A DNA stretch of 64,000 nucleotides from Segetibacter sp. 3557_3. GTDB taxonomy: Bacteria > Bacteroidota > Bacteroidia > Chitinophagales > Chitinophagaceae. Made by a program: the position numbers and the translations under genes. The stretch lies in contig NZ_SMSK01000001.1 in the NCBI RefSeq assembly GCF_004354985.1, positions 248,001-312,000 on the forward strand. The letters run 5' to 3'. This document shows positions 11,735 to 49,212 of this stretch, in pieces (positions within the stretch are counted from its first letter, which is position 1; every line of letters begins with the position of its first letter). The notes below the pieces were generated by a model. That model was not told the DNA's origin. It did not search any database and was given only the letters and a program-made list of their open reading frames with translations.

Positions 11735-11870
11735 CAATGTCATTCCGTACGCAATTTTTTTTGAACCAGGCTGCAGGATCCCAATGGAACATCCTTGCCC
11801 GGTGTCGCATTCTTGTACCGCTGAAATTGATTGAGCAACAAACTGTATAATAAACTTAAATAAACGACAC
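11735..11870. mobile_element. MITE-like element, degenerate copy
   Basis: Left end CAATGTCATT and right end TAAACGACAC, with internal AATTTTTTTTGAACCAGGC and GGTGTCGCATTCTTGTACC. These correspond block by block to the well-preserved copy at 27948-28082. The terminal repeats are more eroded and no flanking duplication is visible. It occupies most of the spacer between 11680 and the next gene. Confidence 0.6.
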
Positions 11871-12043
11871 CCGCAAATCCATATTTGACTCTCCGGCATC
11901 CTTTGTTAGCTCATCAGCGTACGAACGTACAAGGGAGTGACCGGCCCATAATTGGAGGCACCGCACAACGATGGATCACATGGAATACAAAAGCTGGTCA
12001 CGTAAAAATTATTAACTACATTTCTCGCACAATCCCTGACGAT

Positions 12044-27529: not shown

Positions 27530-28250
27530 GATGTTATATGTAGAAAGTTGGATGTAGAGAGTTAAGAATTAGGAGTGCAGCGTTATGTAGGGAGTTGAGA
27601 TTTAAGAGTGCAGAGTTATGAGTCGATAGCTTATGTTATATGTTGTATGTTGAATGTTGTATGGAGGGAGTTGAGATTTAAGAGTGCAGAGATATGAGTC
27701 GGCGGCTTATGTTATATGTTGTATGAAGGGTGTTAAGAGTTAAGAGTTCAGAGTTATGAGTCGGCGGGCTATGTTGAATGTTGTATGTAGGGAGTTAAGA
27801 GTAAAGAGTGCAGAGTTATGAGTCGGTGGCTTATGTTATATGTTGTATGTTGAATGTTGTATGTAGAGAATAATGAGTTAAGCGTGCAGAGTTATGAGTC
27901 GGTGGTCTATGTTGGATGTTGTATGTAGGGAGTTAAGAATTATGAGTCAATGCCGTTTAGTTAAGCAAATTTTTATGGACCCGGCCACAGGAATTCTATA
28001 GGACATCGTTGCGTCGCACTCTTGTACGATTGGAAGTAGCTGGGCAAACAAATTGCATAATCGGCTTAACTAAACGACATTGAATTATGAGTGCAGAATT
28101 ATGAGTCGGTTGCTTACGTTATATGTTGTAGGGTAAATTTTTGTATGGGAGAGCTATGAGGTATGAGAGCAGCGTTATGAGTTGAGTTATGTTACACGTT
28201 GAATGTTGTATGGGAGAGTTATGAGCGCAGGGTATGAGTCTTGGTGTGTG
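27530..28250. repeat. Low-complexity tandem repeat region (GAGTTAAGAGT-type units)
   Basis: Imperfect units of about 75-120 bp share GTTATATGTTGTATGTTGAA, AGGGAGTTAAGAGT, GTGCAGAGTTATGAGTCGG and GGCTTATG. Five or more can be followed between 27530 and 27945, and decayed pieces continue after the MITE insertion to about 28250. There is no coding frame. Repeat lengths are irregular and there are no conserved spacers, so it is not a CRISPR array. Confidence 0.8.
27948..28082. mobile_element. MITE-like element, best-preserved copy with target duplication
   Basis: A 135-bp element. The left end CAATGCCGTTTAGTTAAGC and the inverse of the right end agree at 18 of 19 positions. The flanks are an exact 10-bp direct repeat, AATTATGAGT, at 27938-27947 and 28083-28092. 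It contains the family block GTTGCGTCGCACTCTTGTAC (28008-28027) and no ORF. The terminal repeats plus duplication are what a non-autonomous DNA transposon leaves. A 10-bp duplication would suit an IS4-type transposase, but none is in the window. Confidence 0.75.
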
Positions 28251-28263
28251 TTGAATGTTACAT

Positions 28264-28420
28264 CAATGTCGTTTAGGTATTGCAATCTTTTATGGACCAG
28301 GCAGCAGTTTTCTAATTGTAAATCGTTGCGCGGTGCCCCCAATATGTGGGTGGGTGGCACTCCTGTACTACAGCTACAACACGCAGCTCTCATGCAGTGC
28401 AACAGCTGAACTAAACGACA
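28264..28420. mobile_element. MITE-like element, second copy
   Basis: It begins CAATGTCGTTTAGG and ends CTGAACTAAACGACA. Internally it has TTTTATGGACCAGGC and a variant of the core (GTTGCGCGGTGC...CACTCCTGTAC), in which a GC-rich hairpin (TGCCCCC / GGGTGGCA) interrupts the block. The flanking duplication is not exact. It sits 180 bp from the preceding copy in the same orientation. Confidence 0.65.
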
Positions 28421-28692
28421 ACAGATGTTGTATGTAGACCATTATGAGCTATGGGTACAGCTTTTGGAGGCTTTGGTCTATGTTGATGTTATCCGTTGAA
28501 TGTTGTACGGGGGGGGATTGGCAGGATGGGGGGGAAGTGGGTTGTGCTAAATGGTAATGTTCTTTGAGAATTAAAGCACAGGCCTTATACGGGCGAGAAA
28601 GGATGTGTTTTAGTAAGATTATGCAAAGCGATAGTTTGATTTCTCAGTTTAAATAAAAACGGTGCGCAAGGCACCGGTATCATGGACGCAAC

Positions 28693-29112: not shown

Positions 29113-29229
29113 AATATATTTTTTAGAAAAGTAGAAGAAACATTTCGATGGTGCAATAGCCGCTAATAGTTTATCCCGGATTGTTGACTTCAACTGCAGG
29201 CAGAGCAGCGGCGAATAGTATTGTTGTGG

Positions 29230-29300
29230 TATAAGAGTGCGACGCAACCGGGGCTACAACAGCGTATCTGCCGCCGGGTTCATAAAAATGCGCTTATGTA
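29230..29300. mobile_element. MITE-like element, partial copy, inverted orientation
   Basis: Read on the - strand, this stretch gives GCATTTTTATGAACCCGGC followed by CCCCGGTTGCGTCGCACTC, the internal landmarks of the 27948 element. Terminal repeats were not recognised, so the ends are approximate. It lies just after the end of the LamG/IPT gene and before DUF5675. Confidence 0.55.
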
Positions 29301-44681: not shown

Positions 44682-45345
44682 GAATACTCTGTTGTAATTT
44701 TACGCTACCAGCCAACCACTCCACTCGTCATCTGGTTTTTTCAAAAGAGCTTGGAACAGCTGAAATAGAGTAACTCGCGTGTGGACACGTCTTTGAACAG
44801 GTTGTAAATGGCATACCGATGACCCCGATTGGACGGATAGGTGTGGACTATCGTTCTGCGTGGCAGAAATCTGCCTACCTGGTACAGGAAGTATAGCAAA
44901 GCGCTCTATGTATACGGATTTCGTTTAAAATTTGAATTCATTATTCCGTGAAATCCTTGTGCCTGTGCTTATTGTGTACACACGGTAGGCCTTTAACGGC
45001 AAAGCTTGATGGCAGCTATGTTTTCTTCCGGGAACGGCCGAGACTCGGTCACTTATAAAATCTTCGGTACAGTTCACTTTCAACTTTCACTGCTATTGCC
45101 CGAAAGATCATTCTCAATTCTTTAGTTTTGTTTACGTTATCTGGGATAGTTTTCAATTGAGAACAAACTGTACAAGAGTGCGACGCCCCCGTCCGAATGG
45201 CTTCAGCCGGGCGGGCAACGGCTGTTGCACATTGTTCTTTCTGCCTGACTCATAAAGGTGTTCTCGGGCGGGTAGTATAGCTATATAGTTCCCAGGGGTT
45301 CTTCTAAATAATAAAAACGCTTACTTTACTGTCTAAACAACTTAT
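44682..45345. other. Gene-free spacer with one partial repeat element
   Basis: About 660 bases without a supported ORF. Apart from the MITE-like piece at 45160-45235, a short motif CGTGTGGACACGTCT near 44779 resembles CGTGTGGACACATCT near 33849. The similarity is too short to name. Confidence 0.5.
45160..45235. mobile_element. MITE-like element, partial copy, inverted orientation
   Basis: GAACAAACTGTACAAGAGTG followed by CGACGC is the reverse complement of the family core (GCGTCGCACTCTTGTAC) plus the AGTTTGTT seen in the 11735 copy. A GC-rich hairpin (CCCCCGTCCGAA / GCCGGGCGGGC) is inserted at the position where the 28264 copy also has one. Terminal repeats are not recognised. Confidence 0.5.
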
Positions 45346-48862: not shown

Positions 48863-49027
48863 CAACGACGTTTAGATTTATTACAATGCAACGAGACTAA
48901 ATACTTGTGCAATTGAAATATGCAATCTCCGATTCGGGTATTTTTTTTGGCACCAGCCGGTGATTATCTATTTAACTTCCGTTGCGTCGCACTCTTGTAC
49001 TGGTGTAGTTGACTCGGCTAATCATTG
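48863..49027. mobile_element. MITE-like element, diverged copy
   Basis: Left end CAACGACGTTTAGATTTATT, internal TTTTTTTTGGCACCAGCCGG, core CCGTTGCGTCGCACTCTTG and right end CGGCTAATCATTG. Each matches a block of the 27948 element with small changes. It lies 20 bp after the stop of the DUF5695 gene. Confidence 0.6.
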
Positions 49028-49138
49028 TCACCTGCCAAACGCGTATACAATCCAATGGTAGTGCTAAGTCGGTAAAGGCACGGTGTTCATCTTGCTTTTC
49101 CTCGTTCTGTTGATAAGCATTACAACCGATGAAAGTAG

Positions 49139-49212
49139 TGCGTCGCAACCGGGGTTACATCTGTGTTACAAATGCCTGGTCCAAAAAAATGCTTTTTATT
49201 CTGCGTTTACTG
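49139..49212. mobile_element. MITE-like element, partial copy, inverted orientation
   Basis: GTGCGTCGCAACCGGGGTTA and, further on, GCCTGGTCCAAAAAAATGC form the reverse complement of the family landmarks. With the copy at 48863 it makes a head-to-head pair about 110 bp apart. The outer ends are unclear. Confidence 0.5.

Follow-up and report, generated by a model that had tools for sequence, protein, structure and literature searches.

The closest described systems are the REPs and REPINs of Pseudomonas. As given in parts of PMC3116915, doublets are inverted repeats in 93% of 430 cases, with common spacings of 71 and 110 bp, and singlets are put at 18%. The CGTC-tagged REPs are described, in excerpts of PMC3733652, as lacking a dedicated transposase and as dominated by head-to-head dimers; they are reported in Bacteroidetes among other phyla and have stems of 8-9 bp, a terminal CGTC (or TGTC, CCTC) and a CCA-like tail. 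The tnpAREP subclass 2.6 of Bacteroidetes has atypical repeats with copies elsewhere in the genomes (PMC6006769, extracts).

Here we describe two nested elements from 64,000 nucleotides of the Segetibacter sp. 3557_3 genome (the window). The outer one is a MITE, an ordinary new family that resembles BrickBuilt of Porphyromonas gingivalis in being small and intergenic with inverted ends, as portrayed in part of PMC4596501. The inner one is unlike the BrickBuilt MITE of the same excerpt in having neither terminal inverted repeats nor duplications. With the Pseudomonas REPs and REPINs, within the excerpted text of PMC3116915, it shares extragenic position, hundreds of copies and inverted doublets beside singlets. 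It differs from them in that the unit is not palindromic, long loosely fixed flanks surround an invariant core, there are more single copies than pairs, no RAYT link was found and the core spans 65 genera. Like the CGTC REPs of the excerpted PMC3733652 it occurs mainly as head-to-head dimers and no dedicated transposase was found; unlike them, it has its CGTC internal to the core and no such stem. It can be likened to the subclass 2.6 repeats by their description in the extracts of PMC6006769, not by sequence, and Y1 genes do not track it.

The REP hallmarks present in the inner element are high copy number, extragenic position and inverted doublets. A palindromic stem-loop and a terminal GTAG or CGTC tag are absent. 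Because, as tested here, the element lacks a palindromic stem, a terminal tag and a RAYT link, it is not filed as a REP or REPIN. A literature search found neither a paper on this sequence nor one describing an intergenic repeat of Chitinophagaceae, some matches being judged by title. Our tentative preference is for an insertion element resembling REPs and REPINs, which an enzyme would move and selection would keep at certain places, a reading that we consider quite possible and stop short of calling probable.

The MITE of the window genome and the element inside it

The stretch at 27948-28082 is a genuine MITE. An earlier note on this DNA had described its ends and an exact 10-bp flanking duplication (AATTATGAGT), and both are present (Table 1); the same 10-mer also recurs within the surrounding low-complexity array. 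This array (27600-28550) is built of degenerate units tatgttgaatgttgtatg, gagttaagagt and ttatgagtcgg. Both MITEs (27948 and 28264) are inserted into it, and similar stretches match elsewhere in the genome.

The window has four core matches at up to 3 mismatches, compared with 0 in 100 dinucleotide shuffles. Each of the seven places proposed earlier holds the core or a recognisable derivative (7/7, both orientations), and an eighth, overlooked copy faces the one at 11735. The MITE-end test is passed by the copies at 27948 and 28264. By eye, the ends are degenerate at 11735 and no MITE ends are seen at 29230, 45160 and 49139; at 48863 a weak likeness to the MITE ends (12/18) starts 79 bp from the element.

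Table 1. Features of the MITE and of the inner element in the window
Feature	Position	Strand	Remark
MITE, 135 bp, ends CAATGCCGTTTAGTTAAG / CTTAACTAAACGACATTG	27948..28082	+	
10-bp target duplication AATTATGAGT, left copy	27938..27947	.	
10-bp target duplication, right copy	28083..28092	.	
77-bp intergenic element within MITE; invariant core 28009-28027	27970..28046	+	limits from -38/+38 frame
Second MITE copy, 160 bp; hairpin after GTTGC in core; without clear duplication	28264..28423	+	
Solo element; core 29229-29247, one mismatch	29211..29287	-	limits by -38/+38 frame
Element with degenerate MITE ends, variant core CTTGCCCGGTGTCGCATTCTTGTAC	11735..11871	+	
Element with expanded B-like core, facing the 11735 copy	about 11927..12006	-	
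Solo element, palindrome after GTTGC; 3' part of core 45170-45188	45169..45259	-	
Element, core 48982-49000	48943..49019	+	limits by -38/+38 frame
Element, right part of core decayed, facing the 48943 copy	49137..49190	-	

The window genome (6.75 Mb) is placed in the same genus as G009. A 155-bp stretch has 51 or more BLAST matches in it, 16 of them near full length at 93% identity or above; BLAST scored 40 of 319 candidates, so that 51 is a lower bound. In the fetched DNA, 50 stretches of 113-217 bp are bounded by the same terminal inverted repeats (at most 4 mismatches, spacing 70-260 bp), most of them fetched for such ends and a few being composites of neighbours. A target duplication at no more than one mismatch flanks 30 of the 50 (29 of 10 bp, one of 9), and 6 of 250 with shifted boundaries as control. 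Besides 27948-28082, 28 copies are flanked by 10-bp duplications, whose sequence is nearly always a different one; L019 shares AATTATGAGT. Another 11 pairs of MITE ends, counted by distance alone in the fetched stretches, lie 500-3000 bp apart, and this survey of end pairs in fetched DNA brought no full-length IS with the MITE ends to light. Shared ends and 10-bp duplications thus recur at other copies across the genome, and the earlier concern that they might be confined to one pair falls away.

An A-like core lies within 28 of the 50 bounded stretches and a B-type or hairpin-expanded core in several others, and the MITE family therefore carries the inner element as filling. The earlier assignment of the core to a MITE-like family holds for 27948-28082, but the core is not the MITE's own: elsewhere conservation stops at -38/+38 without MITE ends. 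Among the own-genome loci fetched by MITE match, about a dozen cores are without MITE ends (by eye). The outer MITE may have picked up one copy of the inner element and would now carry that copy about.

The core is the centre of a separate intergenic element of about 77 bp, distinct from the MITE. Over 120 bp, 227 of 228 copies taken from other genomes fall below 75% identity with each other, yet information rises at -38 and ends at +38 relative to the core start. The frame consists, in order, of a T-run, CCnGGC, an AGC just ahead of the core, 19 bases that hardly vary and a TnnGC tail. MAFFT introduced no gaps in two alignments and did so in a third, which places the frame one or two bases off in some copies. 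The core has an A form (TTGCGTCGCAC[T/A]CTTGTAC) and a B form (TTGTGTCACTCACTTGTAC), with TGTC in B where A has the internal CGTC; a third variant, TTGCGTCGCA followed by other bases, occurs in two genera. Part of the loci were defined by an exact-A-core fetch, which biases core purity there, and later element calls (such as the 260 strong copies and spacer occupancy below) come from a model trained on exact-A-core copies. Around inner elements, pairs and single copies alike, no target duplications above the permutation level were found. A shared flank motif 43 bp apart was considered and rejected (likeness 0.342 within a copy versus 0.329 between copies).

Occurrence and pairing of the inner element

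Exact A or B cores occur in 188 of 394 Chitinophagaceae genomes and 65 of 101 genera; the reversed control pattern had no match in the rows shown. The window genome has 238 exact cores, and 201 sites match a 20-bp core at up to 3 mismatches. The richest genome, G254, has 1,954 exact cores in 5.4 Mb, and high numbers are also found in G188 (1,594), G196 (1,298), G107 (1,176), G119 (1,166) and G001 (1,111). At one mismatch the 19-mer is present in 20 of 36 genomes of the family and in 0 of 23 genomes from other families of the order. Among the matches listed, at least 113 public stretches belong to Chitinophagaceae or are named only as Chitinophagales or Bacteroidetes. Core number is patchy inside genera (for example 0 in G012 vs 191 in G151). 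Exact A cores lie on 7 IMG/VR viral contigs and exact B cores on 10, with one contig shared, and phage structural or replication genes are present on some of these contigs.

Neighbouring elements within 400 bp (n=45) comprise 43 facing, 1 tandem and 1 back-to-back pair. Facing pairs also predominate in tandem spacers (27 vs 1 back to back), so the arrangement is a property of the element, not a consequence of how the genes are oriented. Between the cores of facing pairs lie 24-196 bp, and by a count of the pair list A and B are mixed roughly at chance. Of 260 strong copies, 88 have a facing mate no more than 250 bp away and 5 have a mate on the other side; single copies outnumber pairs. One G196 pair matches many places in G254 over 149-198 bp at 75-85%, middle included, which suggests that pairs move as units.

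At L134:7799-7950 and L148:259-393 a hairpin, CCGTCATTGCGAGGC..CGAAGCAATCTG, lies between paired elements; it resembles a CGTC-REP as published. Two spacers of L301 (3900-4068 and 5684-5853) hold near-identical pairs with a variant core, the second lying between inverted AACAYGAGTTCGGGATAAG-like ends, perhaps those of another MITE that captured the element.

The Y1 transposases were compared with the element in 59 genomes, and no co-occurrence was found. Y1_Tnp was not found in G033 (146 cores) or G006 (103 cores), and it was found in several genomes with no cores. An element lies near 4 of 32 Y1 loci; all five such elements face inward, one locus being flanked on both sides, which is by a rough estimate about what density predicts. 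At L042:1020-2170 two inward-facing hairpin-expanded elements bracket a Y1 transposase gene, whose motifs by eye resemble subclass 1.2 as presented in the extracts of PMC6006769. Repeated peptides downstream of another Y1 gene (L041:2250-3180) point to a DNA repeat. The Y1 gene at L170:1200-2520 lies near CGTTCCGTAGGAACG palindromes, likely a separate REP family.

In the closed genome G013 the orientation of the element is about even on both arms, in a rough hand tally of 100 listed of 138 sites and of the exact sites, with origin and terminus taken from 20 sparse skew windows. The last of these 100 cores lies at 3.29 Mb of the 5.08-Mb chromosome and no more than 19 are in the first 1.1 Mb, and the density is thus uneven.

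Gene boundaries, rpoB and phage junctions

The inner element prefers spacers at transcript ends. In four element-rich genomes, the stretches anchored on rpoB have it in 26 of 28 convergent, 55 of 84 tandem and 14 of 39 divergent spacers, and in 1 of 70 gaps under 60 bp. The preference is weaker in genomes with fewer copies: G009 (394 cores) has it in 0/4 convergent, 6/16 tandem and 0/5 divergent spacers and G000 in 0/3, 2/17 and 0/6, together 0/7, 8/33 and 0/11. A sense copy is present in the spacer at 102 of 213 gene 3' ends, and 38 of the 102 begin no more than 11 nt from the stop codon. For 233 gene starts, a copy points towards the gene in 80 spacers and away from it in 64. These counts cover the element-rich genomes and 11 further contig starts, with G000 and G009 set aside. 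In loci fetched by the core, the element and its upstream neighbour share a strand in 119 of 193 cases.

Insertion specifically behind terminators was considered and rejected. Hairpins of -9 kcal/mol or below lie just upstream of the element in 12.5% of cases vs 3.8% of shuffles; since they are also in excess further upstream (9% of windows vs 4% of shuffles), they are mostly a property of spacers.

The element lies behind rpoB in 19 of 55 genomes whose stretch was searched or read, 20 of the 55 having been chosen as element-bearing; 15 loci came from the search, including G395, and G188, G196, G119 and G000 from reading. The rpoB-rpoC spacer holds an antisense element, a few tens of bases ahead of the rpoC start, in ten genomes of seven genera. 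Its core is exact A in G170, G395, G176 and G087, exact B in G117, one base off in G148 and G009, and decayed on the right in G197, G151 and G000, the G000 copy being decayed and recognised by eye. Some of these carriers have few exact cores genome-wide (G170 1, G395 4, G197 3), and the sole exact core of the whole G170 genome is the one between rpoB and rpoC. Eleven other readable spacers are without the element (G077, G133, G012, G076, G120, G091, G031, G169, G100, G082 and G140). In three genera one species has the copy and another lacks it (G077, G120, G012).

G170 and G395 are 83-84% identical in DNA. Their rpoB-rpoC cores are identical and the element aligns at 79%; the rpoB side of the spacer does not align, and about 40 bp beside rpoC do. 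Fourfold sites are 51% identical. Neutral survival of the core was rejected on a probability of 0.506^19 = 2.4e-6, a rough estimate given that the copies were found by their intact core.

Elsewhere behind rpoB, sense copies follow the terminator that ends the gene in G168, G112, G188 and G196, where the T-run of the terminator doubles as, or just precedes, that of the element. A terminator-like hairpin after rpoB, with no rpoC start in the stretch read, is seen in G188, G196, G119, G168, G112 and G101 (L378:980-1330, L388:7380-7780, L385:19330-19720, L424, L417 and L430), an arrangement from which other relatives differ. The occurrence of the element behind rpoB in 19 of 55 genomes led us to give more weight to readings as a functional signal and less to insertion.

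Some places are common to different species, and the core there is intact. G188 and G107 both retain a back-to-back pair that surrounds a terminator. In Limnovirga relatives, 6 of 7 element halves of four spacers were traced by hand to G254 and 3 of 6 to G119; the flanks of the traced spacers have diverged and some neighbours are on other contigs.

A phage gene junction also contains the element as a block: in a phage that carries genes for head, tail sheath and tape measure, the element makes up nearly all of a 73-bp spacer. Two related phages, with flanking proteins 34-41% identical, have 3-4 bp there. At a second element of the same phage the relatives have 28 and about 62 bp, without the element. 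The element was probably gained in the junction, the comparison fixing neither the direction of change nor the exact ends.

Insertion, retention and alternative readings

The strongest alternative is a functional chromosomal signal that came first and is rarely mobile, the core being read polarly by a family-specific factor (in termination, 3'-end formation or as an insulator) and copy number being set by selection. We regard this as possible and hold it with some reserve. It would account for the occupancy at transcript ends in element-rich genomes, and for the orientation behind rpoB, which follows context: antisense in 10 of 10 before rpoC and sense after terminators. Solo copies in tandem spacers of element-rich genomes are sense in 36 and antisense in 20, but in the loci fetched by the core they are split 52 to 48. 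Of 29 ortholog comparisons between species, 24 agree on the sense 3' copy; these comparisons are not independent and leave out the pair G000-G009 with its 6 joint absences. Several observations fit poorly with such a signal: 206 of the 394 family genomes are without any exact core, the phage operon of L162 has elements in both orientations, pairs also occur in divergent spacers, and antisense copies follow rpoB where rpoC is not next (G119, G101).

A combined reading, which we find rather doubtful, would make the 19-bp core in its two forms a dedicated polar signal of Chitinophagaceae that phages have adopted. A factor would read it at most transcript boundaries in element-rich genomes and at an old rpoB-rpoC site in element-poor ones, and its own insertion machinery would have spread it, so that members of one genus could acquire or lose a genome-wide transcript-end code.

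A structured RNA or single-stranded DNA element, with the core as a junction from which two small helices grow at fixed points, seems unlikely. A hairpin inserted at a fixed point of the core had been proposed earlier from two copies; such hairpins are real, and more than two copies have them. By eye, 10 of 10 candidates from the window genome look genuine and 5 from other genomes do not. The hairpins lie after GTTGC, and in three of the own-genome candidates a second point lies before CTTGTAC. Core positions 4 and 8 are C:G or T:A in 532 of 537 cores, but A and B differ at linked positions and the switch may therefore be a single event, and facing pairs combine A and B roughly as chance would. 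The proposed check by folding and covariation gave no flank covariation in the 77-bp frame, and the only conserved pairing was 4-5 weak pairs within the core; when 48 copies were aligned with gaps, no conserved fold was seen, and Rfam returned only a tRNA in the window and 6 loci. Of the structural role once suggested for the core, the fixed-point hairpins and the 4/8 switch leave the possibility, which covariation and folding do not bear out. The 4/8 pairing and the fixed-point palindromes fit a protein-recognised dyad or a tiny stem, proving neither.

It is very improbable that the core is simply part of old, decayed MITEs with CAATG ends (CAATGTCGTTTAGTTAAG). Many copies of the window genome have these ends and duplications, but copies elsewhere share nothing beyond -38/+38 and have no duplications above the permutation level, in pairs or singles; these limits and missing duplications largely refute one MITE family for everything. 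Haemophilus and Neisseria have DNA-uptake sequences, and a similar role for the core, for which copy numbers of up to 1,954 might speak, is scarcely credible for a 77-bp frame that was probably gained as a block and rarely lies in genes (28 of the 238 cores of the window genome overlap an ORF of at least 100 aa).

Insertion followed by retention is the simplest account. The inner unit of about 77 bp would be a non-autonomous extragenic element of Chitinophagaceae that spreads by insertion, often as an inward-facing pair, and leaves no target duplication. It would be mobilised in trans by a presumed enzyme, with the pair as the putative mobile unit. Copies would then be retained at certain places, where something would recognise the 19-bp core, and the function would most likely be that of a polar transcript-end or boundary signal. 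Against insertion stand the failure of Y1_Tnp to track the element and the apparent lack of a replication-direction bias in one closed genome (a rough hand tally). The element is also not a palindrome, solos outnumber pairs, placement weakens with fewer copies and the rpoB-rpoC copy varies within three genera. Presence likewise differs among 22 homologous gene pairs in the loci fetched by the core, where the same-strand 3' copy is shared in 2, one-sided in 6 and found on neither side in 14.

If the core marks transcript ends, the family has an undescribed punctuation signal, which would stand at most convergent gene ends in some species while close relatives do without it. If it is a mobile repeat, it would be among the densest bacterial repeat families known to us, one without the palindrome that defines REPs and without a known enzyme. 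On either reading, other mobile elements pick the core up, phages carry it, and in several genera the element sits between two genes for RNA polymerase.
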